Assembly (NCBI RefSeq): GCF_020497125.1
Contig: NC_059074.1
Location: 192,257,415 to 192,321,414 of the forward strand
Direction of reading: 5' to 3'
Length of the DNA stretch: 64,000 bases
DNA from: Mauremys mutica
Lineage: Eukaryota > Chordata > Testudines > Geoemydidae
Shown here in pieces: positions 13,362-58,059 of the stretch (position 1 is its first letter; every line of letters begins with the position of its first letter). The notes below the pieces were generated by a model. It was not told the DNA's origin, made no database searches, and saw only the letters and a list, made by a program, of their open reading frames with translations. The position numbers and the translations under genes were made by a program.

Positions 13362-13637
13362 TGGTAGGCAGTGGTGGGATGTTTTAAGAACCAAGGATTG
13401 TTTTTTTTCTAACAAGGCTTGTTAGGAAGGACCCCCACTGAGAGAGCATTAGCAGTTTGCCAGAGACAAGTTACAAAACCAGATTTTCTGGTTCTCTGTC
13501 AGCGAACAACCAGCTACACATTTGCAAATGAAAAGTTTTGTTTTCTTTTTATTCAGTCGGTGATAGAAAGGGTTACGAACTTGTAATCCAAGCAAGTGAA
13601 CCAAGCAACATAGTTAATTCACTGACTGCAGAGGGGT

Positions 13638-15371: not shown

Positions 15372-16222
15372 TCAACGGAAACAACCTCATCACCTACATC
15401 GCTTCCAGAGGGACCAAGCCCAAGTCCACAGTCTAAGGAGGAACTAGTGTCCCCAGCCTCAAGGGAACAGTTCCAGACTGAGCAGGAAGCCGATGACAGC
15501 CTTAAGAAAGCTTGGGCGGCGGCACGGAGCAACCCACCGCCTCTCAGCTCTTCTAACCGATCCCGGTTTGTTGTAGAACAAGGACTTTTATATAAGGAGA
15601 CTCTTTCTGGTGGACACCAGGAAGGCTGGCATCCTCAAAAACAGTTGGTAGTTCCAACTAAGTACCGGGAAAAGCTCTTAAGCTTGGCCCATGATCATCC
15701 CAGTGGTCATTCTGGGGTGAACAGAACCAAGGACAGGTTGGGGAAGTCCTTCCACTGGGAGAGGATGGGCAAGGACGTTGCCAATTATGTCCGGTCTTGT
15801 GAGGTATGCCAAAAGGTAGGAAAGCCCCAAGACCAGGTCAAGGCCCCTCTCCAGCCACTCCCCATAATTGAGGTCCCATTTCAGAGAGTAGCTGTGGATA
15901 TTATAGGTCCTTTCCCAAAGAAGACCCCCAGAGGAAAACAATACATACTGACTTTTGTGGACTTTGCTACCTGATGGCCGGAAGCAGTAGCTCTAAGCAA
16001 CACCAGGGCTAAAAATGTGTGCCAGGCCTTAACTGACATTTTGCCAGGGTAGGTTGGGCCTCCGACATTCTTACAGATTCGGGAACAAATTTCCTGTCAG
16101 GGGCCATGAAAGACCTGTGGGAAGCTCATGGGGTGAATCACTTGGTTGCCACCCCGTACCACCACCAAACCAATGGCCTGGTGGAAAAGTTTAATGGAAC
16201 TTTGGGGGCCATGATCCGTAAC
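15372..16222 (+). pseudogene. integrase N-terminal and core region (Gmr1-like gypsy)
   Basis: This continues in the same frame as gag-protease after one TAG codon (15369-15371). In the open stretch 15447-15974 an HHCC zinc-binding module is seen (H84, H88, C118, C121), then the start of the catalytic core with VAVDIIGPF (first Asp, ~D151) and YILTFVDFAT. A TGA at 15972-15974 ends it. Beyond, a frame change near 16045 leads to a second Asp in LTDSGTNF and to HQTNGLVEKFNGT, which holds the catalytic Glu. The gene is cut at 16222 by the ERV and resumes at 20367. The catalytic residues are all present but the frame is broken twice. Confidence 0.88.
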
Positions 16223-16514
16223 TGTTGCAGCGCAGGCGTGCGTGGACAGAGCTCGACCACCAATATGATTAAAAGCAGAGTCATTTTATTTCTCTCCAGC
16301 ATATTTCATTTATACAATTAATGCAGGCAATCAAGCAATTGCTAATTGGTTAATAAGGTGCAAACAGGCACAGCTGTAACTTCATTGGCTATTTAACATC
16401 CTGGCCAACCCTTTAATTTATTATCCTGTTATTGTCTCCCAGCAGATAAGAACTAGCTTCATCCTTGAAACTTGCATGTCAGTTTCTCACACTCTCATGC
16501 ACAACAATCCCACA
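16223..16514 (-). repeat. 3' LTR of the 16-20 kb ERV
   Basis: 292 bp, TG...CA ends, 291/292 identical to the partner LTR by eye. In element orientation it is the 3' LTR because the polypurine tract adjoins it. Confidence 0.92.
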
Positions 16515-19185
16515 CTTCCCCCCTCTTCTCATAATAAAAAAAAGGAAGGCACAGCAAAACAATCCCAACTCACAATATCAATACTACATACACACAAGCC
16601 AAAACAAAGGGCAAATAAAAACACCAGCTGTCTAACTAAACCGTAACAATATCTTCCGCAGTACCCTGCTCTCACCTATCACATCCCCCCTCCAGGTAAT
16701 GCAAGTGGCCCAAGGGGCCAGGAGGGTTCTGCCAATGTGCAAACACCCACAAAGCAGATTTCCAATAAGGGCTTCCACTGCAGCAACATGGGGCAGCAGG
16801 CAGAAGGCCGTAGTATTTATGGCACTCTGCGCCAAAATCAGTCAAGGCCGGACCCACTTCGCCGGAATCCACCTGGCTTACTGTCTTCCCATTTCCCATG
16901 CACCGTATCTGATCCAATTAGGCCACCTGGCCTTTGCCTCGCTCTGGCAGTTCCCTACTTTCTCATAACAACATTATCTCATCCCTCTGTTCTCGTAATC
17001 ACGCAGCTGTAATTTTCCACCAAGGCAGCATAGGGAAATTCTCCCCTCTATTCCTAAACACATAAAAAATTAACAATAACCAATTAAGCAAAACAAAACT
17101 AAAAGCCAAATAATGCTTCCTCAATATATAAGGCTTATCCATAACCATGCAATTCATAACATACAACACCAACAACATCAAACAAAACAAACATAAATAC
17201 ACAAAATCAAACACTTAAATGGTGTAAATTCTGCAGGGTTCCCCCAAACTCTATTGCACACCAAATCGTGACAAATTTCTATTACCAATCCATCCCCCAT
17301 GTGCCAGGTGATCAAACTGACACTGAGGGGGGGGGGGGGGTCCTAGCAGGAAAAACACAACATAAACCACATAAACATTTTAACAAAATCACAATTCTTT
17401 CTGGCCAGAAACACATATCACAAACAAACATAAAACATGAAACATAAATTTAAACTCTATATAGCTAACAGGCAAAACAAAAAAATTACTTCATCAAATA
17501 AATCATTTACATTAATACAATTGCTTCCTAGCTTACTCCTAAAATCCAAAACTAATCACAGCTTAAAATTTCTTACTATTAGCTTCTAACTTTAAACACT
17601 AAAAAAAAAAAAAAAAAACATCACCACTTATATGCCCTTAGCCTAATACAATTACAATTACATAGCACAATATACAATCTTCAACTAATACAACAAAATA
17701 TTCATGGCCAAACAATTGCAAACTAATATCTTGCCTAAATTTATTTACAAACATTTCAAAACACCAAAAACTTTTCTCTTTAGCATCTTTACAAAATTCA
17801 ACCTTTATTCCCTCTGGCAACCATAGAGTTAAACTTTTAGTCTCGCTACGCCCTCAAGAGTTTTTCAGCCAGCTTTCCAAGCCTTATCTGTTGCCTGTCC
17901 GCTTGGGCCCGATCCTGTTTTCCCTTCAAGTTCTCTATCTATTGCGTGCCTGCCTGGGCCCGATCCATATTTCCTCTCCAAATACGCTGTCTATTATAAT
18001 ATAGGCCACATCTAATATCAAACAGTCTACAACGGCCAATAATCAACACATAACACAAAATCAACAAAAAGTCTAAATAAACTAACAAAGGCACTTTACA
18101 TAAAAATTCTTAGGGTCACATAAATTCAAAGCCATTCTCCCAAATTACCTAAATTTATGCCTAAACAATCCACAATTCCCCCCTTTGAGAATACTCAACA
18201 AACCCGTTGGCTGAGTTTTCTCAAACTTAAAAAACAACAAACAATTAAACTCTAAAAAGCTGGGGTAAATAATTTCACATCCATCCTCCCCATGAATCCG
18301 TCAGGGTTCGATATGTAAAAGCCCTCACCCCCCAACTCAACCGGTTTACATGCTGGGGAGGGGCACTGCAAACATTTACACTTTTACTCAAACAGTGTCA
18401 AAATATATTTTTACAATTCCAAATCAAATGGCACTCCTAATATATTTGTAAGGGCAGTGGGCTATCCTGGTGCTCAAAATCACTCCGAATGGCCATCAGC
18501 TGGCCATTCAAAACGTCAAACATACCAGCTCCCACGGCAATGCTTTCTCAGCCTCAATAAAAAAAAGAACATATCATTTACAATCCAATTAGGGTGGGCT
18601 ATACATACTAAAGAATTTATCCAAAACACAGGGCGCAGCCTGTAGAATAAACCCCAAAATTCAATTAATATCACATTTCTCAGCAGGAGTCCCAAATTTC
18701 TTCCTGCCAGTGTGTAATTCTGTGTTTCTTCACCAGGGTCAGTTCTCAATGTCTTTTTAATCAGGAATTTCTGGACTTTGGTTGGGCTGCCAAGGGACAC
18801 CTTGTCCCTTTTTCATGCTGTCCAAAAACACAATAGGACTAAAAAATTACATAGGCCAATCATCAGTAAAAAAAATTCTCCTGATATAAAGGGGTCTTTT
18901 GCAATAAAAATCATGGGTCCAAGCAGTCAGTCCTTTTTGTAGCGTTTCTTTACCCATAAGAAAAGAAATCTGACACATTCCGGTAATGCCAGGCCGAGTT
19001 TTACAGCTATTCCAGCGGCCTGGGCACAGTCAAGCCCCCGCCTTTCTCTTGGCCGTTCGCCAAGTCTCAGTTGCAAGCAATGTCCTTGGCTGGGCCAAAA
19101 AAAAGGAATGAGCTTTCTTGCCTTGTTAACTCATGCTGTTCCTTTTCCTTCCCTGCTTGGCTTCTTTTAATCTGTAAATCCTGTG

Positions 19186-19569
19186 TCAGCTATCGCTGCT
19201 CATACCGGAGAAGCATAATGATTTTCCCAGCACTGTCCCAGGCTCAAACCAGCCAGTGTAGGACGCCTTCTCCGGGCTTCTGTAGGTCCGAACGACCTCC
19301 GGGGCCCCGGCACAAGCCTCTACTTGCGCCGTGCACTCCAACGTCTTCCCGTCCAGGGCTCGCTTCCAGCGGAGCATCTCCTCGTCCTGTGCCCGAAGGC
19401 CGGTCAGGAGGAGCCTCCACAACTCCCCCTCTCTTCTTAATAAGTGAATCAGTGCAGCAGGGAAGATCTTTTCCCTTTGTCGGTTCATAATGTACAACAA
19501 AGGCTTCTGTGTTATCTTTTCTTCAGCTGATACAGCGGTACTCACGTTAGCTGCTCTGCCCTTATCCAC
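19186..19569 (-). pseudogene. possible gag start of the ERV
   Basis: A 127-codon minus-strand frame lies between the hairpin-rich leader and the AT-rich interior, where gag would begin. It holds a helical, charged segment (IHLLRREGELWRLLLTGLRA) but no motif that I can assign. Position is the only argument for gag. It ends without a capsid-like region. Confidence 0.3.
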
Positions 19570-19570
19570 C

Positions 19571-19871
19571 GCGGCTTATAGCCGCCCTTCTCCTCCGCGG
19601 CTTGTAGCCGCCGCTTATCTCCGCGACTTATAGCCGCCCCTCTCCTCCGCGGCTTATAGCCGCTCTCCTCAGGGCTCAGGTGCGTCTCTCTTTTCGGACG
19701 CTCGCGGGCTTCTCCGGCACTCCCCGCTGCGGCTCCCAGCCGCTCACCGCGTCTCTGTTGGACGCCCGGGGGCGTCTCCGGCACTCTCCCCTGCGGCTCC
19801 CAGCCGCTCACCGCATCTCTGTTGGACGCCCGGGGGCTTCTCCGGCACTCTCCCCTGCGGCTCCCAGCCGC
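19571..19871 (-). repeat. array of seven short hairpins in the ERV leader
   Basis: A 15-base inverted repeat, GCGGCT-NNN-AGCCGC, occurs at 19571, 19597, 19623 (one stem change, GCGACT), 19649, 19729, 19793 and 19857. The first four start exactly 26 bp apart; the last three are 64 bp apart. Loops are TAT, TGT, TAT, TAT, then CCC three times. The array lies between primer-binding site and gag, where retroviral packaging and dimerisation signals reside. That role is inference. Confidence 0.85.
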
Positions 19872-19874
19872 CCG

Positions 19875-20058
19875 CCTCTGGGCTCAGGCTCCTGGCCGTT
19901 CGCCTCTGGGCTCAGGCTCCCGACACTATCATCACTCGATACGAGTCACGTCGGATAAGCACTCCCTGCCTCTGGGCTCAGGCTCCTGGCCGTTCGCCTC
20001 TGGGCTTCTCCGCCTGGGTCAGGCCACCGACACTTTCATTCGATACGAATCACGTCGG
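19875..20058 (-). repeat. duplicated leader segment including part of the primer-binding site
   Basis: 'gcctctgggctcaggctcctggccgttcgcctctgggct' starts at about 19875 and again at about 19970. Each copy leads to a 'cgatacga[g/a]tcacgtcgg' string (near 19938 and 20040). Only the second continues into the full tRNA-Trp primer site. Confidence 0.7.
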
Positions 20059-20068
20059 GGTCACCATT

Positions 20069-20360
20069 TGTTGCAGCGCAGGCGTGCGTGGACAGAGCTC
20101 GACCACCAATATGATTAAAAGCAGAGTCATTTTATTTCTCTCCAGCATATTTCATTTATACAATTAATGCAGGCAATCAAGCAATTGCTAATTGGTTAAT
20201 AAGGTGCAAACAGGCACAGCTGTAACTTCATTGGCTATTTAACATCCTGGTCAACCCTTTAATTTATTATCCTGTTATTGTCTCCCAGCAGATAAGAACT
20301 AGCTTCATCCTTGAAACTTGCATGTCAGTTTCTCACACTCTCATGCACAACAATCCCACA
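20069..20360 (-). repeat. 5' LTR of the 16-20 kb ERV
   Basis: 292 bp. In element (minus) orientation it precedes the primer-binding site, with the two-base spacer usual in retroviruses. One base differs from the partner LTR. Confidence 0.92.
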
Positions 20361-21886
20361 CGTAACTTCGTAAATGAACACTCCAATGATTGGGATCTAG
20401 TGTTGCAGCAGTTGCTGTTTGCCTACAGGGCCGTACCACATCCCAGTTTAGGGTTCTCACCATTCGAGCTTGTGTATGGCCATAAGGTTAAGGGGCCATT
20501 ACAGTTGGTGAAGCAGCAATGGGAGGGGTTTATGCCTTCTCCAGGAACTAACATTCTAGAATTGTAAGCAACCTACAAAGCACCCTCCGACACTCTTTAG
20601 CCCTGGCTAAAGAAAACCTAAAGTATGCTCAAGCGGTGCAAAAGGCCTGGTATGATAGACATACCAGAGAGCGTTCCTTCAAGGTAGGAGACCAGGTTAT
20701 GGTCTTGAAGGCGCAACAGGCCCATAAGATGGAAGCGTCATGGGAAGGACCATTCACGGTCCAGGAGCGCCTGGGAGCTGTTAACTACCTCATAGCATTT
20801 CCTAATTCCTCCTTAAAGCCTAAGGTGTACCATGCTAACTCTCTAAAGCCCTTTTATTCCAGAGACTTACAGGTTTGTCAGTTTACAGCCCAGGGAGGAG
20901 ACGACACTGAGTGGCCTGAAGGTGTCTACTACAAAGGGAAAAGTGATGGTGGGGTGGAAGAGGTGAACCTCTCCACAACCCTGGAACGCCTACAGCGGCA
21001 ACAGATCAAGGACCTGTGCACCCGCTTCAACCCCTTGTTCTCAGCAACCCCAGGACAGATTGAACGAGCATACCACTCCATTGACACAGGTAATGCTCAC
21101 CCAATTAGAACACCACCCTACCGGGTGTCACCTCATGCCCAAGCTGCTATTGAATGGGAGATCCAAAACATGCTAGAGATGGGTATCATCCGCCCCTCTA
21201 CCAGTGCATGGGCACCTACAGTGGTTCTAGTTCCCAAACCAGATGGGGAAATACGCTTTTGCGTGGACTACCGTAAGCTGAATGCTGTAACTCGCCCCGA
21301 CAACTATCCAATGCCATGCACCGATGAGCTATTGGAGAAACTGGGACATGCCCAGTTCATCTCTACATTAGATTTAACCAAGGGGTACTGGCAAGTACCA
21401 CTAGATAAACCTGCTAAAGAAAAGTCAGCCTTCATCACCCATGCAGGGATGTATGAATTTAATGTGCTTCCGTTCGGACTGCGAAATGCACCCGCCACCT
21501 TCCAAAGGCTGGTAGATGGTCTACTAGCAGGATTGGGAGAATGTGCAGTTGCCTACCTCGATGATGTGGCCATTTTTTCTGATTCCTGGCCCGAACACCT
21601 AGAACACCTGGAAACGGTCTTTGAGCGCATCAGGCAGGCAGGACTAACTGTTAAGGCCAAAAAGTGTCAAATAGGCCAAAACAGAGTGACTTACCTAGGG
21701 CACCAGGTGGGTCGAGGAACCATAAACCCCCTACAGGCCAAGGTGGAGGCTATCCAAAAGTGGCCTGTCCCAAGGTCAAAGAAACAGGTCCAATCCTTCT
21801 TAGGCTTGGCCGGATATTACAGGCGATTTGTACCACACTACAGCCAAATCGCTGCCCCACTAACTGATCTAACCAGAAAAACATAG
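20361..21886 (+). pseudogene. integrase C-terminus fused to reverse transcriptase (Gmr1-like gypsy)
   Basis: The first part (20367-20565) resumes the integrase (WDLVLQQLLFAYRAVPHPSL, FSPFELVYGHKVKGP). After a frame break, one frame (20636-21886, 416 codons) runs from the integrase C-terminal GPF-type domain (YDRHTRERSFKVGDQVMVL, WEGPFTVQERLG) into reverse transcriptase. The RT motifs are RTPPYRVSPHAQ (~159), VLVPKPDGEIRFCVDYRKLN (~197-216), STLDLTKGYWQVPL (~243), FGLRNAPATFQRLVDGLL (~280) and the catalytic YLDD at ~307-310, then GLAGYYRRFVP-type sequence. The continuous frame proves that integrase lies upstream of RT. It ends at a TAG (21884-21886) after DLTRKT, with related sequence continuing, so the stop is probably a point mutation. 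Confidence 0.9.
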
Positions 21887-22396
21887 CCAAATGCAGTTAA
21901 GTGGACTGATGAGTGTCAGATAGCCTTTACCCAGCTTAAGGCGATGCTCATGTCTGACCCTGTATTAAGGGCCCCGGACTTTGACAAACCCTTCCTAGTA
22001 ACCACCGATGCATCTGAGCATGGGGTAGGAGCAGTTCTAATGCAGGAAGGACTGGATCACAACTTCCATCTTGTCATGTTTCTCAGCAAGAAAGTACACT
22101 ATCTCTGTACTATTTCTGAGAGGGAAAGCCACTGGCCCATCAGTGAAAAAGAATGCTACGCCATTGTGTATGCCCTGGAAAAGCTATGCCCATACGTTTG
22201 GGGACGGCAGTTCCAACTACAAACCGACCATGCTGCGCTAAAGTGGCTTCATACTGCCAAGGGAAACAACAAAAAATTTCTCGGATGGAGTTTAGCTCTC
22301 CAAGATTTTGATTTTGAAATTTAACACATTTCAGGAGCTTCCAACAAAGTAGCTGATGCACTCTCTTGTGAAACTTTCCCAGAATCAAATGGTTAA
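21887..22396 (+). pseudogene. RNase H domain of the Gmr1-like gypsy element
   Basis: This follows the RT stop in the same element. It has LRAPDFDKPFLVTTDASEHG (the first catalytic Asp of RNase H), SEKECYAIVYALEKLCPYVW (the Glu), and LQTDHAALKWL (the second Asp). A TAA at 22322-22324 is followed by the normal end ISGASNKVADALS. It cuts DNA-bound RNA during reverse transcription. The catalytic residues are present, but the stop codons make this copy defective. Confidence 0.88.
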
Positions 22397-27112: not shown

Positions 27113-27618
27113 TCAGGTGGTTAGTGTGAGGTGGGAACAGACCCAGAAGAAAGGGAATATTTTCTCCCCCTTGAAAGAAGCTGTGAGACTGGCGATCAGA
27201 TCACCATTATCTGGGTTGAAAAATATCACTTCCCCCTTTTCACAGGATACATAGATCCGTATCTTCTTGGGTGTCTCACTCAGTGGCAGGGGGCTCTCAG
27301 GGGTGGCGAGCAGTGAGTAGTGAACCCTGGACTGTTCTATCCCCCAGATCCCCTCCTCGGGGGTAAATTTGATTTCTCCCTTCTTCTTCACAGACTCTCT
27401 GGCGACCCCTATGGCCCAGATTCTCCCCATCTTCTCCACTTCCCAATAAATGTTTCCTGATGTGAATCCCTTAGAACCCAGCACACAGAAAACTTTGTCA
27501 AATCTCTTGGCATTGTCAGGCAGATCCTGAGGTTCAGATTCCCATGTCACAGTCTTCTGTTTCTCTGACAGCTTGAGCTCACGATGAGCTGTGTCTGGAT
27601 CCAGAGTCACCTTCACTT
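27113..27618 (-). CDS. PRY-SPRY (B30.2) last exon of the BTN-like gene
   Basis: The exon opens after the acceptor tctctctctctcag (AG 27620-27619). It is intact over 168 codons to a TGA at 27113. PRY motif VKVTLDPDTAHRELKLSE, then RFDKVFCVLGSKGFTSGNIY, WEVE, WAIGVARESVKKKG, TPEEGIWGIEQ, KKIRIYVSCEKGEVIFFN and EKIFPFFWV. The LDP and WEV motifs are canonical; the third (usually LDYE) reads VSCE. Length and order fit a complete cytoplasmic B30.2 domain. The reading frame joins the micro-exon at 29917-29943. Confidence 0.93.
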
Positions 27619-30600
27619 CTGAGAGAGAGAATCAAAGCATCAGAGGCAGAGCTCAGCTCTGGGGGAGGACTTAGCAGCCCTGCTCTGGCCAAGACAGCCC
27701 CTAAGTTTCTGTCTTGCTGCCAGACGCTCACACTGCTAGGGCTGGGGAAGGATTAATTGCAGCTCCCTCTGCCCAGGTACCTGGAGCAGCTGCCGTGCTG
27801 TTTGCAGGTCTGGGATGGGTGGGTCTAGGCCCACCCAGGACAAAGGCCCATCCATTCAACTAAGAGAGAGGAACCACTAAGCCCAGGCCACAGTTGAGTA
27901 CCTGGGACAACAAAGGAGAAACCAGGAGCAGGAGTGAGGTAAAAAATGAGGGTTCCGGAGGGGGACACCGAGCAGAGAATCTCTGCCAGTAAACCCCCCA
28001 CCACTATCACCACCACCTTACAGGTATCTCAGGAGTCAGTGGACACTGGCCAGAGGTGTGATCAGATAAAGGCGTGAAAATAGGCCTCACAGTCACAGAG
28101 CACCACCCCTATCCAGCTTCTACCTTCCCACGTGATGGATGCTGTCTTGGCCAGTGCCAGGACAGGGCTGATGAGGAGGTCCTGTGACTTAGCTGTGCAG
28201 ATGCTGGTACATCCTTCCAAGCACAGTGCAACTTTAACTGTACTGTGCAGCTGTTGTCAGCACATCTGATGTGAATGTATGCACATCCCAGCAGGTGTGC
28301 ATCTCCCCTCCATAAGGCTCTGTGCATTGCAGGATTGTGTTTGCAGCTCTCTGTACAGCTCCTCTCATGAAAACAATCTGTTTTTTATGCAAAGGCCTGT
28401 CAGTGTGGACTATCTACATGGAGTCTCAATGAAGTTAATAGGACTCTGCACATATATAGAGGTCAGCACATGCGATTCAGGTCCCAAAGCAGGAAAAGAA
28501 CAGATACTAGGGTGGTGACGAAGTCTAGTATCCAAGTACACCCAAAACCTGTGATCATTTTGATCTATGTGTACACCTGTCTATTGGAACCTGAACTCTC
28601 ACCAGCAGCTCATGGCACAGAGATCCCTAAATCACCCCTCAGATGCTGGGGTTTAGTCTACAACTGAAGGGCTCCAAATCCCATCATCACCATTCTCCAG
28701 GTCCCCCTACTCCTCACCTTACCATGTAAATTTGAAAATATGATCATCTGATAAAAAGAGAAAATGACATTTCCTGAAACTTGTCAATATCCACCAGAAT
28801 TCAGCTCCCCATCCATATGGAAGGGGAAAAAAACAGTTTTAATTTCTTCATCTTTCCCTGAACGGAAACTGGCATTTAAAACACTATAGTTAGGGCCATA
28901 CCAAATTCACAGTTCATTTTGGTCAATTTCATGGTCAGAGGAGTTTAAAAATAATGAATTTAATGATCTCAGCTATTTAAATCTGAAATTTCAGTGTTGT
29001 AATTGTAGGGGTCCTGACCCAAAAAGGAGTTGTGAGCGGGTCTCAAGGTTATTGGGGGGGGGGTGCAGTACTGGCACCCTTAATTCTGCACTGCTGCTGC
29101 TGGTGGCAATGTTGCCTTCAGAGCTGGGCAGCTGGAGAGCATTGGCTGCTGACCGGGAGCCCAGCTCTGAAGGCAGAGCCGCCGCCAGCAGCAGCGCAGA
29201 GGTAAGGATGGCATGGTATGGTATTGTCACCCTTACTTCTGCGCTGCTGTCTGCAGAGCTGGGCCCTCAGTCAGCAGCTGCCACTCTCCAGCCTCCCAGC
29301 TATGAAGGCAGAAGTGCTGAAGTAAGGGTGGCAGTACCACGATCCCCCTAAAATAACCTCATGACCCCCTGCAACTCCCTTTTTGGCCCGGACCCCCAGT
29401 TTGAGAAACACTGGTCTCCACCATGAAATCTGTTTAGTATGGGGTAAAAGCACACAAAAGACCAGATTTCACAGGGGAAGACTAGATTTCATGGTCTGTG
29501 ACGTGTTTTTTATGGACGTGAATTGGGAAGGGCCTTAACTATAGTTATAGAAATCTTGCTACTAGGAAGAGAATATTCAGCAACTTAATGATTAGATAAT
29601 GTCAGTACAGGGTCAAAATTAGGCATTAAAAAAAGGACTAACCTGAAAATACATGGCCAAATTCAGTGGAGAATTAGCCCATAATGCCTCGGGAAAAATA
29701 TCCTCTCACTACTCACCACTTTACCAAAAGGGCACATCCCTAGTCTATAAAAAACCTAGGGAACTGTTTGTCTCTTCCCATCCCCACTGAAATTACTACA
29801 GTATTTCTAATCCTTTACTTTTCACATGAGACTCATTCATTGTAAAAGAGCGGGAAGCAGAGAACTATTGGGGTCAGGTCAGATTTTGACATTGGTAAAA
29901 CATGAGCTTTATTTACCTCCAAATACTTGAGTTTTTCTCCATTCTGAAAACAAGCACAAGCATAGAGATGAGAACTCCCCTGAACACAGATAGTCTGAGT
30001 ATGACAATACTTCTTACAAGATTATACTAAAGATAAAAGGAACTTACTAAGATCAGCCTCGAGCTTATCTAAAAAACAAAGAAATTAATATATAATGAAT
30101 TACAAAAGAGCTCTTGTTCAATGAATACACATTTACCTAGCTACTGAAAACTTAGTTAACTTTAAGTTATGGTTAATATTATCAAACCAAACTGTATAGT
30201 CTAGTATAGTGATAGATCGATCGATCGATCTCCTCCAATAACTATTTCACTGGAGGAATAGAGATGAGAACCCTACCGAACACAGACAGTCTGCGTTCTT
30301 GAAGTTTGTACTAAAGATAAAAAGAACTTACCAAACTCAACCTGGAGCTTTCCTAAAAAGCAAAGAAATTAATATATAATGAATTACAAAAGAGCTCTTG
30401 TTCAATGAATACACATTTACCTAGCTACTGAAAAGTTAGTTAACTGTAAGTTATGGTTAATATTTTCAAAACAAACTATAAAAGTATCTCTCTATGTCTA
30501 TATAGCTACATATTACAGGAGGATGTGTAGAACTCGTCAAATAGCTATTCCATGGGAGGAATAGCGGCTTACACCTCCTGTCCTCTAATGTAAGTAGTCC

Positions 30601-36600: not shown

Positions 36601-38871
36601 GACGCTACGAGAGCTAGCAGGAAATTTGTGAGGCTCAGACACTGCAGTGATGAGCATCATGGGAAAGCTCTTGAGGAAATGAATAGCTCCATATTCAGAG
36701 CAGGGTTTGGGTGGTGACAGTCAATAGTGCCAGGCTGCAGGAAGGGAAATAATAATCGCAGGTGTTATTTTTAAAGTGGTCTCTATTTAGCTAATCATTG
36801 GTTCTCTGCCTTAGGTCTTGATGAGCTAAGGAAGGGGGTGGCCACCTTCGCAGACAGGGCCCTGGGAGGCAGGGGTTAGAACCCTAGCCTGGGACTCGCA
36901 CCATGGCTCAATTCCTGGCTCTGCCACAGACTCTCCGTGTGAGTTAGGGCAAGTCACCAAGGGCTTGTGTCTCCACGTAACATTCGGGCTGCTTTAACCC
37001 TGCTGCTGTACAATACCGGGCTGTGCTCTCTGCTAAGGGTTGTGAAGTGCACAAAACCAATCAGTGGCATATTTGAACTCTCATTTCCAAGCCCAGTGCA
37101 GCATTCTTAGGCTAAGGGCCCTTTGACGGCTGAGCGTCTTTCTGGCTGTGCTGCGCAGGTGTTCTATTAGCACCCTGTATTTCCAAAGGGAAGGGCTCAT
37201 CATTTCATATTGTAAATTATGGACTTTGGTTTTGGCATTTGATTTCATCCATTAGACATTAGCTGTGGGAATCTAGTGATATGTTTCATGTGGCTCCTAG
37301 GCCCTTCATTTATTTCCCAAGATATAGGCAAAAAAGTAATGGAAGACTTCAGATTTCCCTCGCAAATTCCATCCCAGGACCTATCCTGAACTCCCAGGTT
37401 AGGGTAATCTGACTTTTCTTGAGAAATTTAGAGAGGAAGCAAAATGTGGCTTCAAATAAAAATGTAGCTGCATCTTTAACTATGGAGAAGCCACCTTCAC
37501 CCTCAACTAATTTATAGTTTAAAGGAAATATCTGAGTACATTGTAGTGTCCCCTTATAACTTTACCTATTGCCTTGCGTTGCTTCCAGAAGAAGTAGCTT
37601 GCTGTGGAAGTGAGCAAACCCACAACCACCACGAGTATGTACACAGCCACCATAAAGGGGTAGCCCCTCAGGAAGAATGGATCTGTAAGACAAAGCCTCA
37701 TTAACTTGGAAACACTGATAGAACAGATGTGTCACTAGTAGGACCTTTGTGGTGATCACGGCATTGTGCCACTGGTTGGAAGTAGAGGTGGTCAGGAATT
37801 TTCCAACTAAATTGTTTTGTTATTGGTTTTTTTTGGTCAGAAAATGACAATTCATCATAACCAAATATATATATATGTATATCTATTTTTTTAAATAGGA
37901 AAGGGTTCTTGGATCCAGAATGGGATTTCTGGTCGAAACCAGAGGAGGAGTGAAACCCTTGAATATCCACTAGCCCAGTGGCTAGGACACTCATGGAGGA
38001 TATCCAGGGTCAAATTCCTGCTCTCCCTCATTTGGAGCAGGGATTTGACCCCCAATCCCAGGTGAGAACCTGACCAGCAGACTATTGTGATGTGGGGGTC
38101 TCTCTCTTCTCTCTCTTGTTTTTAATTAAAACTTTTGAAAAGGGTCAGTTATGTCCCCTTGGGGAAAAGGAATTTTTTTGAAGATTTGAAAATCTTCATG
38201 GGACAGGAAACCATTTCCCTCCGAGCTCCAGTTTGAGAGCCCATTCTGGCTGCACAAAGGGGCCTTTTCTACACTACAGAAATTTTGCAATATTTCCATT
38301 GCATATTCCAATTCAACTCCAGGCATGTTAATGGTATTAACAATAAAAAGACACACTATTAAACACCCCTCCCCCAAAAATTAGCCATGTTTCATTATAC
38401 TCCATCTGCAGCTTGGAAGGCCGGTTCATGGAGTCTAACTTTCCCTAAATTCACCACACACAGTGTTTAACGAATAGCCTCTGAGCAGCTCTATGCACAT
38501 GCATGTTGTAAATCCAATATTTAAATTAGCCCTAAACTTGCCCCCTTTTTGGTGAATGGCTGAACTATGTGGCTTTGATGAACACCAACCTGCAATGGAG
38601 ACCACAGACTCTTTCCCTGGGTTGAGGTGGGAGTTCCTGACAGAGCAGGACAGATCCTGACTGGAAGTTTCTGTTACAATAATGGAAATTTGTGCTTCAA
38701 ACAGGCCGTTATCATGTTGAGTTATTTTTTCTGTTAGGAATGGTAAGTGCTGCCCACTGAGATCTCTCCACTGCGCCTGGGGCTTCGGATACCATCCAGC
38801 AGATTCACACACCATGTGGATCCCTCCGCTCTGGTAGCTGTCGATAGCGATGCGAGGAGTAGAGCCCAGAC
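27113..38871 (-). CDS. butyrophilin-like gene (IgC to B30.2), multi-exon
   Basis: Seven minus-strand exons join into one frame, all junctions phase 1: IgC 38590-38871, transmembrane 37566-37682, micro-exons 35291-35311, 30332-30352, 30048-30068 and 29917-29943, then PRY-SPRY 27113-27618. Each has AG/GT borders. Domain order is that of butyrophilins: extracellular IgC, membrane segment, short coiled-coil stem built from 21-nt heptad exons, and cytoplasmic B30.2. The usual IgV and signal-peptide exons were not found in the window. They may be lost, diverged or absent from the assembly. Introns hold CR1, Tx1-like and hAT insertions. BTN proteins regulate T cells (established); the ligand here is unknown. 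A possible first exon with ISRE sites lies at 51.57-51.75 kb, unproven. Confidence 0.85.
27825..28020 (-). mobile_element. Tx1-like LINE ORF2 3' scrap
   Basis: The minus-strand frame contains LCSVSPSGTLIFYLTPAPG and FSFVVPGTQLWPGLSG. The LCSVSPSGTL part is homologous to FCSVSSLWNL in the larger fragment at 30860-31480, placing both in the same LINE family at the end of ORF2. It lies in the BTN-like gene's last intron. Confidence 0.5.
28021..28880. other. intronic sequence, nothing recognised
   Basis: Part of the intron between the SPRY exon and the nearest micro-exon. No repeat or exon is supported. Confidence 0.3.
28891..29537. mobile_element. non-autonomous hAT element with internal foldback
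   Basis: Flanked by the identical 8-bp TSD actatagt (28883-28890 and 29538-29545). Imperfect terminal inverted repeats: tagggccataccaaattcac on the left against taaggcccttcccaattcac (reverse complement) on the right, 16/20. Inside, aaaaaggagttg (29020) and caactccctttttgg (29370), and also a GTACTGGCACCCTTA string and its approximate complement near 29325, form a second inverted pair. It has no coding capacity. Confidence 0.85.
29917..29943 (-). CDS. micro-exon 4 (27 nt) of the BTN-like gene
   Basis: Acceptor ttttcag, donor GT at 29916-29915 (ggag|gtaaat). It encodes WRKTQVFG in register. Its last G joins AA of the SPRY exon to make Glu before VKVTLDP, the classical BTN junction. Confidence 0.85.
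30048..30068 (-). CDS. micro-exon 3 (21 nt) of the BTN-like gene
   Basis: Acceptor tttgttttttag, donor gtaagt. In phase it encodes one heptad with KLEADL. It is a duplicate of micro-exon 2. Confidence 0.85.
30332..30352 (-). CDS. micro-exon 2 (21 nt) of the BTN-like gene
   Basis: Acceptor gctttttag, donor gtaagt. In phase it encodes a heptad with KLQVEF. Confidence 0.85.
30860..31880 (-). mobile_element. Tx1-like (L1 superfamily) LINE, ORF2 C-terminal part, decayed
   Basis: The minus-strand frame 30860-31480 has FYCGEMEALAHAYLQCIRLQ, a zinc-knuckle-like C-H-C segment at the end of Tx1-type ORF2. It is followed by LFCLLQDLLLRFWLHFSLHL and GAQFCALVHSHLQAEFLCTV. Upstream (31490-31880), broken frames still show ORF2-like sequence (EFFWLGKH, PPEEGGQGM). 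Several stops are present. The family name comes from resemblance recalled from turtle and amphibian Tx1 elements and was not checked by search. It lies in the intron between micro-exons 1 and 2. Confidence 0.6.
31905..32400 (+). mobile_element. CR1 LINE reverse transcriptase fragment
   Basis: The plus frames include the QHGFCKGKSCLTNLL-type block (32054-32100), FQKAFDKVPHQRLLSKVSSH, IGNWLKDRKQRVGL, and VPGPILFNIFINYLQ (the Gln-Gly of the usual PQG is lost). It stops before the YADD box. Confidence 0.85.
32500..32770 (-). mobile_element. CR1 ORF2 endonuclease N-terminus, inverted relative to its neighbours
   Basis: The minus frame 32577-32765 contains KFLYTNARSLNNKMGELECL and IDIIGITETW, the opening of the CR1 apurinic-type endonuclease domain. 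CR1 pieces on both sides (31905-32400, 32945-33205) are in plus orientation. Confidence 0.8.
32945..33205 (+). mobile_element. CR1 LINE 3'-UTR
   Basis: 'gataagttcatggaggacaggttcatcaatg ... gggctagatggatcattggtctgacccgg ... ttcttatgttctta' is the distal CR1 tail and is homologous to 6395-6556. Confidence 0.85.
33206..35290. other. intronic stretch, AT-rich then mixed; nothing assigned
   Basis: 33240-33540 is strongly AT-rich. 33560-34100 is GC-richer with short open frames on both strands that carry stops and no recognised motif. No exon is supported. Confidence 0.3.
35291..35311 (-). CDS. micro-exon 1 (21 nt) of the BTN-like gene
   Basis: Acceptor tgtttttag, donor gtaagt (35290-35285). It encodes a heptad with KLGAEL directly after the transmembrane exon, in phase 1. 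Confidence 0.85.
35312..36859. other. intronic stretch, nothing recognised
   Basis: Short (ga)n tract near 36466-36482. No exon or named repeat is supported. Confidence 0.3.
36860..36975 (+). repeat. MIR/CORE-SINE-like fragment
   Basis: 'cctggctctgccacagactctccgtgtg ... gggcaagtcacc' matches the conserved core and tail of MIR-type SINEs. It is old and diverged. Confidence 0.6.
37566..37682 (-). CDS. transmembrane exon of the BTN-like gene
   Basis: 117 nt, phase 1 at both ends; acceptor tgtcttacag, donor gtaaag. It encodes DPFFLRGYPFMVAVYILVVV and GLLTSTASYFFWKQRKAIG: a hydrophobic membrane span followed by a basic cytoplasmic anchor. The first codon (Asp) is completed by the last G of the IgC exon, the usual BTN arrangement. 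Confidence 0.92.
37970..38075. repeat. tRNA-like/palindromic short repeat
   Basis: 'tagcccagtggctaggacactcatggagg ... gggtcaaattcctgctctccctcatttggagcagggatttgacccccaatccca' has a tRNA-like head and a self-complementary middle (caaattcctgctc / gagcagggatttg). Probably an old SINE or foldback repeat. Confidence 0.45.
38590..38871 (-). CDS. IgC-like exon of the BTN-like gene
   Basis: 282 nt, phase 1-1; acceptor ccattcccctccag, donor GT at 38589. The sequence runs GLGSTPRIAIDSYQSGGIHM, then VCESAGWYPKPQAQWRD (first Cys and the GWYP-P motif of BTN IgC domains), LFEAQISIIV, and SSQDLSCSVRNSHLNPGKES (second Cys), closing with VVSIA. It is complete, with no stops. The extracellular membrane-proximal domain. 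Confidence 0.93.
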
Positions 38872-41640
38872 CTGGAGGGGAATGGAGTGAACCTGTGTGA
38901 ACCCTACACAAGCATTATGGATCTCTTCAGCCTGGAAGGTGAGAGTTTAATCCTTTAGCAGAAGGAAAAAGTGGATCATTGTCCCACCTACAGAAGGGAA
39001 GAGCCTTTCGCTGCGTCACTGCCAGGCTCTGGCTGTATAAGCCACCAGGAGCGCTTTGCTGATATAGTGAATGTAGTAGGAAGAGGGCCTGAAACATAAG
39101 CCCTCGTATCAGAGGCCTGGTGTGAGGCCTGAACTAAAGTAGTGGTCAAGCTTTGCTGATATAAAGCAAAGAAGCCAAGTCGGGTTTTGCCTGCTTGCAA
39201 GCAGACAGAATCTGACAAGAATAGGGCTGATATTGCAGAAACACACATTCCTAAGTAGTGTTAGGAAACTGTACGTAAACACATTCCAGAAAGGTGGCAC
39301 CAGAACACCTCAATAGCAAACATGTTCCCCAAAGAGAACAGGAACATGCTGACCCATCTTAAGGAAAAGCTCAGAATGACAGCATGATGGATAGAGATGT
39401 TTTGATCGAACCAACATGTACAGGGTGGCTCCTGGATAGGTCAATGGAGGGCACCCTAATACGTCAGAAGTAATATGTAACTTGTTTGTATCTGTGTATA
39501 AAGATGTATCTCAGAGGGGTGTCTTTGTCTGGACGAGGGGAGAATGGAAAGTCCCGCCATTCACTGAGCTGGTCCACTGTCACAGGCATACATGTGTTAG
39601 TGTACCATGAGAAAGCTGCAGTGATTTAACACAAGGTGTAAATTGAAAACCATCTAGTTAAACTGGTGCAAAAAGCCATGTGGAACTGATTTTTGTATAA
39701 GAGAGGCCTTTTGTTTTATTGTTTATTTTAACTCTGTTTGGAACAGGTTTAATTAAACCAGGGATAGCTGCCTTTAAACGGATGTAGGAGCGTCCACACA
39801 GGGGTTTGCACTCATCTAAATAAACTGGATTAAAAAACAATGTAATTTAAACTGATACAACTTTCCCATGCAGAGAAGGCCAGAGGCTCTAAGGCCTGGT
39901 CTACGCTTAAAATGTAGATTGACACAGCTATGTCACTCCGGGGTGTGAAGAATTACAACAGAGTGCTTCTAGTGAGCTAGCTCCTGTTGTTTGGGAAGGT
40001 GGATTGCCTACAGCAGTAGGAAAACTCGACCATTGCTTTAGTCTGCGTCTGCACTATGGGGCTGCAGCGGCATAGCTAGAGTGCCACTGTAGCCCCCCTA
40101 GTGTAGGAAAGCCCTAAGTCACAGTCTGGCAGTGCTATTGTGAAAAGGCACCAGGAGCTGCTTGGCAGCTCTGCCTGGGGAGCTCATGGTGTATTTATTA
40201 CCAAACTGAATATTATCTCATTCTTTGGTGAGCAGTGGAAGCTGAGACCAAAAGGGTGAAATCCAACAAGATTTATTAATACAACAATGAAGCAACACTT
40301 ATACTTCCTGTTTCCTGTTGGTTTCTAAACAAAGACTACAGCTCTCAGCAATCAATGCTGGATCTAGCAACACCACATTTCCCTTGTCTTAGAACAAACT
40401 CAATCTTACAACAGTAATAATAATCCAATAACCTGCTTCTATAATTATAAACATAAATTATGTAATTAGCAAATAAACAATAACTAAGAATAATGTAATT
40501 GTAATTAGAATTCAAGTTATAACAGAAGACTGTTCCTTTAGTAATTACAGAACAGTCTCTAGCCAATCCAGTTGGCTGTCAGACTCTGACAACATATTCC
40601 TCAGGCCGAATATCCTGTCAGTTATCCTGTATTGTCAGCAGCAAAGTAAAATAATTGGGGCTAGTTAGATAGTCTGAAACATTGCACTATATCTTCGTAA
40701 GCAGGGGCAAGATGAATAGTGCTCCAGACCAACCATCTGACAGCTTGTAAGTATGTGGTCCTTATGACGGGGTCGCTGGGATGCAACATGGACTGTGGGA
40801 TCACTGAGCCCTCTCTCCCTCCAACATGGGGTGCCCCCTCACACTGTGATGCTGTGTCAAGCCACAATCCCCTGGCAGGCACTACCCTTAAACAGCCATC
40901 CACAGACAGCAACACACCCAGCTGAGTTACATGAATACTTCTCCCAGTCACTCATGAACCAGCAATAGGGAGGCTCCAGCCAATTCCCCCAAGTTCCCCA
41001 GTCTTGCAGCCCAGAGCTGTACCGTCTTGCCCTGGTCAGAAGCCTAACCAGTATAAGTTCATTATCCAGATTGCCCCTGCTTTGATGTAATCTGAGCTGA
41101 GATTTCCCAAGCACTTCAACCAAACCACACTGTTTAAGGTAAAATATAAACTGCAGAAAAATAGATTTTAAGTGATTTTAGGTAGCAAGTGTAGAGATCA
41201 AAGTTGGTTCCCTAAGAAATAAAAGTAAATTCACAAACTGAGTTCTATAAACTAGATAAGATTTGAATCAAGCAGTGTCTCACCCTGACAAATAGTACAG
41301 TTCCTCAATACACAGGCTGGGACTCTTTTCCAGCCTGAAACCACCCTCCCACATACAAAGTCTTTGTCCTTTGTTGAGTTGTGGGGGGAGTGAAGCCAAG
41401 GGATGATGTCACTTCCCCTCCTTTATAGTTTCTTCCAGCTTGCTGGAAAAATCTTTTGCTCTGGTGTAGGGATCAGATAGTCTCCATTGGTCAAGCAGTC
41501 TCCATTGTCTACGTGTTCTCTCTAAAAAGTTTCCCTTGTATATAGTTTCTGAAATCCTTTCCTTGATGGGAATGATGAGCCATTAATCTCTCTCTGCCTC
41601 CTCCATTGTTGCACCTGAACGGTTGGTTGTGGGTGTTCCC
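38872..41640. other. region 5' of the IgC exon; repeats, no IgV found
   Basis: A hAT-like 'aaggcctggtctacgc' repeat lies at 39892-40115. 40200-41640 looks repeat-derived; on the minus strand 'taataaatcttgttggatttcac' near 40270 resembles an LTR polyadenylation region. No open frame has the Cys...Trp...DxGxYxC pattern of an IgV exon. Confidence 0.4.
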
Positions 41641-52200: not shown

Positions 52201-52208
52201 GCCTAGAT

Positions 52209-55101
52209 CAGGGGTCTCAAACTCAAATGACCCCGAGGGCCGCATGAGGACTAGTGCATTGGCCCGAGGGCCGCATCACTGACACGCCCCCTTGCTGCCC
52301 CTGGCCCCACCCCCAATCCACCCCTTCCATGAGGCCCCGCCCCTGCCCTGTCTCTTCTCCACCTCCTCCCCTAAGCGCGCGGCTCCCCGCTCCTCCCCCC
52401 TCCCTCCTGGAAAGTGCTAAGCGCCACCAACAGCTGTTTGGCGGCTTGGTGGCGGGAAGCGCCTGGAGGTAGGCAGAAAAAAAAATGAAGAGTAATATAG
52501 TAGTATAGTATTAAAATATAGTATGCTATTAAAAGTCAATTTATTAACTTTTTTATCTGTAATGTGAAACGTCAGTGCTAATTTTGACAGTCATTTCATT
52601 TTTGGCCACTTAGCTGGCAGCGTTTTGCATCAACCAGAGCATCAATATTAGGTTTGATATCCTGAGACGAAACCAATCTCAGTGTTGCTTGCAAATGTTC
52701 ATCAGCGAGCCTTGACCTTAACACAGATTTGTTAATCTTCATGGAAGAGAAAAACTGTTCACATATATATGTACTTCCAAACATTGCCATTATCCTTGCA
52801 GAAGCAGAGAATAACATGGGAAATCTTTCTTGTGAAAGAAACCTGTAGAATTCTGGAATTCCAACATCTGTATACTTCTGCTTCAAAATCGTGTCACACT
52901 GAAGCTCCACTAACTCCATCTGCATTTCCTCTGCAACATTGTCAATTTCAACAGCAAATGGTGTGGAAAAAAGTTGAAAATGTGGTTCAAGTGCCTTGAA
53001 ATCTTTAAACTGCACATCAAACTGTTTGTGTAAGTTAGAAATGATCTCTGCATATTCTTTCAAGGATTTGGGTTCAATTTTTCCTAAGGAATTCAGAGTT
53101 GAGAAATGGACCAAATTGCCAGCAGTCAGCTGTTTCCCCCATAAAGTAAGCTTGACTTTGAATGACTTAATACTGTCATACATCTGTGTTATCACCTGTT
53201 TTCTACCCTGAAGTTTCAAGTTCAGTGCATTCAGGTGATCAGTTACATCTGTTAGAAAAGCAAGGTTGCAGATAAAAGTGGAATCAGCAAGCTGTGGAAC
53301 CTCCTTGTTTTTCATTTTCATGAAGGAATCAATCTCCTCTTTAAGTGCAAAAAAATGCTTCAAAACATTTCCATGACTCAGCCATCTAACTTGAGTGTGA
53401 TACAGAAGTTCCCCATATTCACTGTCCATACTTGCTAGAAAAGAAGTGAACTGTCTGTGATTCAGCCCTCGTGCACGTATAAAATTAACAGTTTTAACAA
53501 CTACATCCATAACTTCTTTCATTTGTAGACTTTTACTACACAGGGCTTCTTGGTGCAAAATACAATGTATACTGGTGAAGCTAATTCCTGGTATATTGAG
53601 GCTGTTCAGTTTGGTCTTCAATAATCCAACCACACCAATGTTTTCAGAGCACATTGATGGCGCACCGTCCGTAGCCAAAGATCCGAGTTTGTTCCATGGC
53701 AGCGCAGCTTTTTCAATGCACTCTTCCAATCCTTGAAATATGTCACGTCCCGTTGTGGTACCCTTCAGTGGCATTAAGTCTAGCAATTCTTCAGTTATAT
53801 TCAAATTGCAGTCCACACCTCTAATGAACACTGCACACTGTGCGGTATCTGATACATCTGTACTCTCATCAAGAGCAATTGAAAATACTTCAAAGTCTTT
53901 TGCCATTTGAATCAATTGTTTTTGCACATTATCAGCTAAATCCGTAATCCTGCAGACAACTGTATTTGCAGACAAGCTTATGCCTTCAAAAACTTTCTTC
54001 CTGTCAGGACATACAATTTCACTGGCCTTCATAAGACATTCTTTTATGAATAAGCCTTCTGTAAAAGGTCGCGATGATTTAGCTATCATTTTGCTTATCA
54101 CAAAACTTGCTCTTACTGAATCTTCGCTAGACTTGTTAATCCCTGAAAATAAATTTCTTTGCTTGGCAAATGCTGCTTTAAGTTGCTGAACTTTTTCCTC
54201 TCGGATTTTTCTGGTGAATGCATCATATTTTTCACGGTGCATCGTGTCATAGTGCCGACGCACGTTATACTCCTTGGGAACAGCAATCATTTGCTGACAA
54301 ATAAGGCATTGAATTTTATCTTTTACCTCTGTGAAAAAATATAAATTCTCCCATTTGTCTTGGAAAACTCTCTTTTCTTCCATGAGTGTTCTTTTTTTTG
54401 ACGAAGTCATTTCCAAGCAGTTTTAATAAATATAGACACTCAGTAATGCACCTCACTCAAAGGACAAAACACGCACTTAGATTTACTGCCTAAGGCTCTG
54501 GGAGGGAGTTTGGGTGGGGGAGGGGGTCTGGAGTGCAGGCTCTGTGCTCGGTGCAGGCTCCAGGCTGCGGCAGGGGGTGGGGGTGCAGGCTTTGGGACGG
54601 AGTTTGGGGATAGGAGGGGGTGCAGGGGTGAGGGCTGTGAGGCTGAGGGTGAGGGGTTTGAGGCATTGGAGAGGCTCGGGGCATTGGAGAGTCTCAGGAC
54701 TAGGGCAGAAGGGCAGGGGAAGGGCAGCCTGCCCTGGCCCTAGTGCAGGGGGGCGCTAGGACCCTGTGGCAGCAGGTGATGCCGGAAGCCGGCATAACGG
54801 AGGAGTGGAGTCAGCGTGAGCTCCCGGGCAGGCTCCCGGGCGGTGAGGGGGCAGCAAGTGGGGGCCGGGAGACACTGGGGGGAGGCATGTGGGGGCGGCA
54901 GGTGGGGCCAGGGGAGAGACCCGGCCCCAAACATTGGGGAGCAGCGCGCGGGGAGCTTAGGCACAGAAAATAACTCGGGGAGGGGGGCGGGGGTGAGGGG
55001 AGTTTGGCGGCGACAGGAAGTAACTGGGGGAGCTCCGCGGGCCGCAGGGAAGAGCTCCGAGGGCCGCATGCGGCCCGCGGGCCGCATGTTTGAGACCCCT
55101 G
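52209..55101 (-). mobile_element. complete autonomous hAT (Charlie-type) transposon
   Basis: 2,893 bp with perfect 14-bp terminal inverted repeats CAGGGGTCTCAAAC (52209-52222 and complement 55088-55101). It is flanked by the identical 8-bp TSD gcctagat (52201-52208 and 55102-55109), the diagnostic hAT duplication length. It encodes one uninterrupted transposase on the minus strand. The ends (52209-52480, 54480-55101) are GC-rich with subterminal ggccgcat repeats (for example 52237, 52267, 55053, 55079) that could be transposase-binding sites. Perfect TIRs, perfect TSD and an intact ORF point to a recent insertion. Confidence 0.96.
52596..54416 (-). CDS. hAT transposase, 606 residues, apparently intact
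   Basis: A cut-and-paste DNA transposase. A BED-type zinc finger lies at ~20-65 (C37, C40, H55, H60). The catalytic RNase H-fold carries D183 (SIALDESTD), D250 (LATDGAPSM), and E553 (YICEQFFSSMK) at the usual DDE positions. A CxxH pair (C285, H288) and an RW motif (R344-W345, TQVRWLSHGNVLKHF) fall inside the insertion domain. The C-terminal hAT dimerisation segment is at ~536-580 (RSRLADEHLQATLRL). The length fits complete Charlie-type transposases. It starts at ATG 54416, with a second Met two codons later, and ends at TGA. Related ORFs are often mis-annotated as GTF2IRD2- or zinc-finger BED-like genes, because GTF2IRD2 carries a domesticated hAT domain (established). It sits inside TIRs with TSDs, so it is a transposon gene, not host. 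Confidence 0.95.
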   Translation of the reverse strand: MEMTSSKKRTLMEEKRVFQDKWENLYFFTEVKDKIQCLICQQMIAVPKEYNVRRHYDTMHREKYDAFTRKIREEKVQQLKAAFAKQRNLFSGINKSSEDSVRASFVISKMIAKSSRPFTEGLFIKECLMKASEIVCPDRKKVFEGISLSANTVVCRITDLADNVQKQLIQMAKDFEVFSIALDESTDVSDTAQCAVFIRGVDCNLNITEELLDLMPLKGTTTGRDIFQGLEECIEKAALPWNKLGSLATDGAPSMCSENIGVVGLLKTKLNSLNIPGISFTSIHCILHQEALCSKSLQMKEVMDVVVKTVNFIRARGLNHRQFTSFLASMDSEYGELLYHTQVRWLSHGNVLKHFFALKEEIDSFMKMKNKEVPQLADSTFICNLAFLTDVTDHLNALNLKLQGRKQVITQMYDSIKSFKVKLTLWGKQLTAGNLVHFSTLNSLGKIEPKSLKEYAEIISNLHKQFDVQFKDFKALEPHFQLFSTPFAVEIDNVAEEMQMELVELQCDTILKQKYTDVGIPEFYRFLSQERFPMLFSASARIMAMFGSTYICEQFFSSMKINKSVLRSRLADEHLQATLRLVSSQDIKPNIDALVDAKRCQLSGQK

Positions 55102-55109
55102 GCCTAGAT

Positions 55110-57125: not shown

Positions 57126-57524
57126 TTACTGGGTTCCACATATTAACCGTTCTTTATCTCTTTGTTTATTAGCAATATTTAAAATTATCATATTAGCACT
57201 CTGTTCTGGGGTAGTCACCTGAGTGGCATGCCTTACGCAATTTTGGGTACAACAGGAGACTAACTGAAAACATACAAAAATTATTAGGATTCCAAACAGG
57301 ATAGTCAGGGCTCCCTGAAACAACCAGTTTCCTATGCCAGAGAAATTGAACAGGTTACTTAGCCACTTCCATAAAGAACTCGGCTCTTCATGGGGAAGAT
57401 ATGCGATTTGTTCTAAGTGGCTAGCGTGATTTATTACCTTATTGGTATCGTCAGGTATAAACACACAACATTGTTTTCCAATGAGAGCACAGGTCCCTTC
57501 TTTGGCCGCCAGCACTATGTACAA
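57126..57524 (-). CDS. env transmembrane-subunit fragment of the ERV
   Basis: An open frame of 132 codons. It begins in the region just before the CX6CC motif (CALIGKQCC), which in gamma-type envelope proteins joins the surface and transmembrane subunits. A hydrophobic membrane span follows (ALTILFGILIIFVCFQLVSC), then a short cytoplasmic tail to a stop at 57126. There is no ATG at its start, no signal peptide and no surface subunit in frame, so it is a truncated remnant and not a complete envelope gene. Confidence 0.75.
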   Translation of the reverse strand: MYIVLAAKEGTCALIGKQCCVFIPDDTNKVINHASHLEQIAYLPHEEPSSLWKWLSNLFNFSGIGNWLFQGALTILFGILIIFVCFQLVSCCTQNCVRHATQVTTPEQSANMIILNIANKQRDKERLICGTQ

Positions 57525-58059
57525 TGCCTGATGGTTTTGGAGGCCACCTGTCGGATTGCCCCTGTTTCTTTGGCCAGGGCTCTTAAACTTTCTCCAGTTT
57601 TATTTGCCATTATTTTAACTACTTCTTTTAAACTCAGGAGCCTTTTTTTGCCTGGTGTATTACTCCCCCAAGTGGGTTAAAGGAACTGCCAATAGTCTCT
57701 TCCCAGGTGTCATTACTGTTCCATATTGTGTTAAACGGACAAGGTCCTCCAGTGAGGTCTGGGGAATTAAGTGGGATAGCCAGGACAGGAACATCAGTTT
57801 GAGAGTGGGCTGGGATGTGGCTGCAGACCCAGCATTTAGAAATATTAAGGGTCTGAGCTATTCACACTTGCTGCTGGATAAAAGAATTGTCATTGTGGAC
57901 TCCCCAGACCTTCAGACACCAACAGCCGAGGAACAGGCACCACCAGAGGCGCATGTTGGAGGTAGGGCCCTTCTGGTTCTGACAACCTCAACTGAGGGAA
58001 CTGTAGTCACAGTTTTATGTCCACCAGGCAGCAGGCGCTAAGCTCACTACTGCTTTTTC

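Follow-up and report, generated by a model that had tools for sequence, protein, structure and literature searches.

Does a transposon with perfect ends and an open transposase frame betray a family that is still on the move? The question is raised by a stretch of 64,000 nucleotides from the turtle Mauremys mutica (contig NC_059074.1, positions 192,257,415 to 192,321,414), hereafter the window, numbered from its first letter. It harbours a complete hAT transposon of 2893 bp, at 52209-55101, the gene of which lies on the minus strand. A first-pass annotation had seen there the mark of recent or current activity, possibly after horizontal transfer. We think it rather probable that this structurally complete hAT transposon, for all its open transposase frame, has been decaying slowly for millions of years.

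The element and its transposase

The terminal inverted repeats, CAGGGGTCTCAAAC at the left (52209-52222, plus strand) and GTTTGAGACCCCTG at the right (55088-55101, minus strand), pair at 14 of 14 positions and mismatch from base 15 on. On both sides they are followed by the target-site duplication GCCTAGAT, 8 bp long and exact (52201-52208 and 55102-55109). From base composition alone, the chance expectation for an exact 14-bp inverted repeat, 1-6 kb apart, with an exact 8-bp duplication is about 2e-5 per window; the completeness of the element, as first noticed, is confirmed. Near these ends the motif GGGCCGCAT recurs, exactly, twice at the left (52237-52276, plus strand, at 52237 and 52268) and three times at the right (55061-55087, at 55061 on the plus strand, 55068 on the minus strand and 55079 on the plus strand). 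All five of its exact occurrences in the window are inside the element, at most about 70 bases from one of its two ends. It must be remembered that this motif was selected after being noticed there. With one mismatch it is found 16 times in the window (7 in the element, 9 outside), for a mean of 7.6 in shuffled sequences, none of 100 of which reached 16. The motifs are candidate binding sites for the transposase.

The stop-free frame that had been announced counts 608 codons, on the minus strand (54422-52596). The transposase gene, the one large frame (52596-54410), runs uninterrupted from an ATG at 54410 to a TGA at 52596-52598, which makes 604 residues rather than the 606 first proposed. The catalytic triad is indeed present, but its numbering was two too high: what had been listed as D183, D250 and E553 is D181 (53868-53870), D248 (53667-53669) and E551 (52758-52760). 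Like these residues, the RW motif, also seen at the outset (R342 W343, 53382-53387), is nearly invariant among the 121 rows compared. The N-terminal zinc finger (residues 17-75, 54186-54362, with C35, C38, H53 and H58 nearly invariant) matches Pfam zf-C2H2_12 (Spin-doc) at 31.7 bits, above the cut-off of 27.3, whereas the hAT C-terminal dimerisation region (PF05699; residues 507-575, 52686-52892), which the same annotation had set beside it, scores 19.7 bits, under a cut-off of 21.4. All these features are on the minus strand. DUF4371 similarly remains below its Pfam cut-off (22.5 bits for 32.1), and a match to Orbi_NS3 (E 0.12) is at chance level. A sequence search of the PDB to E 0.1 gave a yeast protein as its sole match (E 0.011), taken as chance, so that a comparison of folds was needed: the predicted model of the transposase has a Hermes-like fold.

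The element is most likely an autonomous-type hAT cut-and-paste DNA transposon, Buster-like, and it is ordinary in kind, a further example of a well-known type. A T at position 2 of the target duplication is the pattern of Ac-type families, Hermes included; GCCTAGAT has none at that place. Terminal inverted repeats of 10-25 bp and lengths of 2.5-5 kb are given for the hAT superfamily (PMC3942097), and the 8-bp duplication, the 14-bp ends, the 2893 bp, the DDE triad and the RW motif all belong to its features. The duplication fits nnnTAnnn, the pattern described for the Buster group (TcBuster, SPIN, Mar; PMC3499496, PMC3517528), at one site where chance would achieve this once in 16. The Mar transposase has also been described as resembling TFII-I family proteins (PMC3517528). 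Hermes, from the house fly, is placed in the Ac family (PMC3499496); its transposase is 12-15% identical to the window protein.

Upstream of the gene, a non-coding stretch that is G+C-rich and richer in CpG (54411-55087, minus strand) is the presumed promoter. Counted to the end of the element (54411-55101), it has 32 CpG, with an observed/expected ratio of 0.50 versus 0.25 in the remaining window. An AATAAA located 51 bases past the stop (52540-52545, minus strand) might be a poly(A) signal, a weak indication since hexamers of this type number 104 in the window. Elsewhere in the 64 kb, blastn found only nine matches to the element, of 15-32 bp (E 0.044-0.54), and tblastn found none. The 14-base end recurs with two mismatches at 1003 (minus strand) and 57575 (plus strand), and its first 13 bases also occur at 18684 (plus strand). 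The isolated sequence at 1003-1016, CAGGGGTCCCCAAC, resembles the end of another hAT family.

By the general biology of hAT elements, the transposase would bind the terminal and subterminal repeats, excise the element through a hairpin step in the flanking DNA, and have it reinserted via an 8-bp staggered cut. That the window copy came by transposition is shown by the duplicated target site; its arrival presumably dates back millions of years, and since that time it would have gained replacement changes, and not yet a stop or a frameshift.

Age of the copy

The best match to the window protein, with 98% identity, is P0001, from a contig of 2022 bases. Five relatives come from named turtles: two from Chrysemys picta bellii (93% identity over 91% of the length, and 83% over 92%), and one each from Natator depressus (90% over 65%), Chelonia mydas (90% over 61%) and Chelonoidis abingdonii (77% over 54%). 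When residues 330-590 were searched by themselves (54 proteins at E<=1e-40, only some of them named), no extra named turtle, bird or crocodile came up. Trees were made of 121 rows (a quick tree), of 31 rows picked from these, and of 14 rows with named hosts. The window protein, P0001 and the five named turtle proteins make a clade of seven rows (support 100/99), inside which only the sea-turtle pair is firm (100/99); this grouping would of itself point to a turtle host. In the quick tree of 121 rows, the window protein pairs with P0001 (support 90). P0001 is almost basal in the turtle clade, its end branch being 0.003 versus 0.016 for the window protein; a nearly undecayed copy thus exists somewhere, which speaks against the family being dead altogether.

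Between the window protein and P0001, 12 of 604 residues differ. P0001 shows the most frequent residue among the 119 other rows at 11 of these columns: R467, for example, is found in 111 of them, R352 in 107, V243 in 105, A152 in 104, R346 in 93 and T569 in 90. Column 133 makes an exception, as the V of the window is commonest there (57 versus 35 L), yet 11 of the 11 close rows that have a residue there have L; at column 414, V and I are almost equal (59 and 57). Eight of the changes are private, found in no other of the seven rows of the turtle clade, four of these being at columns where at least 75% of the rows share one residue. The remaining four window residues (M41, H346, H352 and I414) recur in other turtle copies. 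Codons 41, 346 and 352 can each be obtained by one CpG transition, and these residues may be either mutable positions that were hit repeatedly, or markers of a subfamily.

What does this tell about time? If neutral, 12 missense changes imply about 17 substitutions overall, or 0.9-1.0% of the frame. Under neutral decay to that extent, the probability that no stop has appeared is 0.50-0.54; that neither stop nor indel has appeared, it is about 0.04-0.23 as the assumed indel ratio goes from 0.15 to 0.05. With assumed rates of 0.3-2.2e-9 substitutions per site per year, the age would be 3-33 million years over all rates tried, and 6-20 million years over a middling range of 0.5-1.2e-9. For turtles, a rate of evolution about one-third that of humans is reported (PMC4054807); the mentions of turtles in PMC9995274 give no turtle rate. 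The whole estimate presumes that P0001, with its shorter end branch, is near the parent sequence. With such a probability of survival, neutral decay can accommodate the open frame, and intactness alone is no demonstration of current activity.

A recent copy, from a family still moving in this genome, would have just such perfect ends, duplication and open frame, and the nearly undecayed P0001 speaks for it as well. The 12 differences from P0001, with eight of them private and four of these at conserved columns, tell against this alternative. Furthermore, the five named turtle relatives are more diverged, with shorter gene models and more private changes, and the branch of 0.052 that the two sea-turtle rows have in common suggests that either the insertion or the subfamily is old in their lineage. 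We hold a recent copy to be unlikely, and what had been said of recent or current activity is much weakened, while it retains P0001 in its favour.

The reading as a slowly decaying copy has nevertheless its own difficulties. P0001 need not be the parent of the window copy, and some of the four recurring residues may be subfamily markers, in which case the copy would be younger. Decay is read here from protein changes, with assumed rates and indel ratios, no DNA of a relative having been found: viral_contigs and genome_contigs gave 6, 123 and 42 stretches matching the patterns used, none a relative by tblastn, but these are microbial or viral contigs, where a negative says nothing about turtles. 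Finally, a survival of 0.04-0.23 for the frame is not high, and may leave room for a recent insertion or for selection.

Host gene, known family or horizontal transfer?

Selection would be at work if the frame were maintained as a host gene, a domesticated transposase comparable to the transposase-derived part of mammalian GTF2IRD2. The frame is open, and many of the named relatives are called GTF2IRD2-like. However, mammalian GTF2IRD2 is a fusion with a Charlie8-like transposase (PMC10641963), and mammal proteins so named are about 48-50% identical in their transposase part, while the window protein is a stand-alone transposase within a complete transposon, the terminal repeats and target duplication of which are intact. 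It is altered at conserved residues, and its 604-residue frame, to which this search was confined, has no GTF2I repeat (Pfam, E<=1). In the 121-row tree, which has six mammal-named rows, the GTF2IRD2-like proteins of cat (P0057), elephant (P0059) and fruit bat (P0068), with 48-50% identity, belong to another clade and the mammal row P0113 to a third one, whereas P0027 and P0035, from the bat Saccopteryx and also named GTF2IRD2-like, are inside the 43-row clade of the window itself. GTF2IRD2 is a name widely given to hAT elements by misannotation, as PMC10641963 reports. We lend hardly any credence to a host gene.

Another candidate is hAT-6_XT, an element of turtles, fishes and a frog for which horizontal transfer, into several turtles among others, has been argued, with little divergence where genomes evolve slowly (Hassan, Galbraith and Adelson, 2024; PMC11008031). 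The likeness goes beyond the superfamily and the turtle hosts: hAT-6_XT likewise has terminal repeats, an 8-bp duplication and a DDE transposase, GTF2IRD2-like. Yet the paper reports high similarity among turtles, fishes and Xenopus tropicalis, its search cut-off being 75% identity or more across 90% of the length (PMC11008031), while the proteins that we presume to be members, P0104 from X. tropicalis (46-47% identity) and a further, distant Chrysemys protein, P0072 (49%), are both elsewhere in the tree. As these presumed members are only 46-49% identical to the window protein, the window element probably belongs to a family other than hAT-6_XT, and identity of the two is very improbable. A text search of the literature for the 14-base end sequence gave no match.

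Horizontal transfer remains to be considered for the family itself. The protein tree intermixes turtles, frogs, a bat, a bryozoan and ticks. The protein of the bryozoan, Watersipora subatra, is 77% identical to that of the window, which would be far above expectation for vertical inheritance over more than 500 million years. The bat proteins P0027 and P0035 (Saccopteryx leptura) pair with P0023, from the frog Leptodactylus, within the frog rows; a single clade of the three frog rows is rejected by the approximately unbiased test (p-AU 1.6e-40), for a group defined after the tree had been seen. The bat-frog case is likely to be one of horizontal transfer, and transfer within the wider family is likely too. 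For turtles the situation differs: a single clade of named vertebrates is not rejected (p-AU 0.27) in a test of 14 rows, the window and 13 named ones, that left out P0001, the other rows without host name, two more Anomaloglossus rows and the more distant named rows. A test on 31 rows very strongly rejected a single clade uniting the 11 named vertebrate proteins; it was not used, since 18 of the 20 outside rows, P0001 among them, have no host name, and the rejection was thus built in. In view of the named-host test, transfer into turtles is plausible at most, so that the suggestion of the first-pass annotation finds its backing in the bryozoan and the bat rather than in the turtles. For the related hAT-6_XT, such a transfer has been published (PMC11008031). 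Literature searches found nothing on horizontal transfer of hAT elements involving Watersipora, and nothing pertinent by title on an intact hAT transposase in Chelonia mydas. We also observed that P0037, from the pseudoscorpion Cordylochernes, and P0113, from a Pipistrellus bat, are neighbours in the tree (branches 0.11 and 0.075, support 87), possibly another transfer.

Surroundings and meaning

The remainder of the window holds a large long terminal repeat (LTR) retroelement in pieces (13626-22324, plus strand), with about 4.6 kb between them. First comes a frame that resembles SCAN/gag weakly (21.4 bits for a cut-off of 27), then the zinc-binding domain of an integrase (15372-15974) and, at 20552-22324, the C-terminal domain of an integrase with reverse transcriptase and RNase H. 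Integrase before reverse transcriptase presumably recalls the Gmr1-type gene order. Frames resembling PRY-SPRY and butyrophilin-like Ig-C domains (27113-27631 and 38435-38914, both minus strand) may point to a neighbourhood of butyrophilin/TRIM genes. An open piece of 157 codons (57126-57599, minus strand) resembles by eye the end of a retroviral envelope, and has no Pfam match at E<=0.01.

To return to the hAT element, it is possible, though we would sooner doubt it, that a Buster-like family distinct from hAT-6_XT entered hard-shelled turtles horizontally, out of a reservoir common to them and aquatic invertebrates, and that working copies persist there, P0001 maybe one of them, the window copy being an older product. 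In genomes that mutate slowly, an intact frame is but a weak sign that an element was recently active. If working copies exist, however, they would stand for a second, separate hAT invasion of turtles besides the published one, and would provide a natural vertebrate hAT transposase worth trying as a tool.
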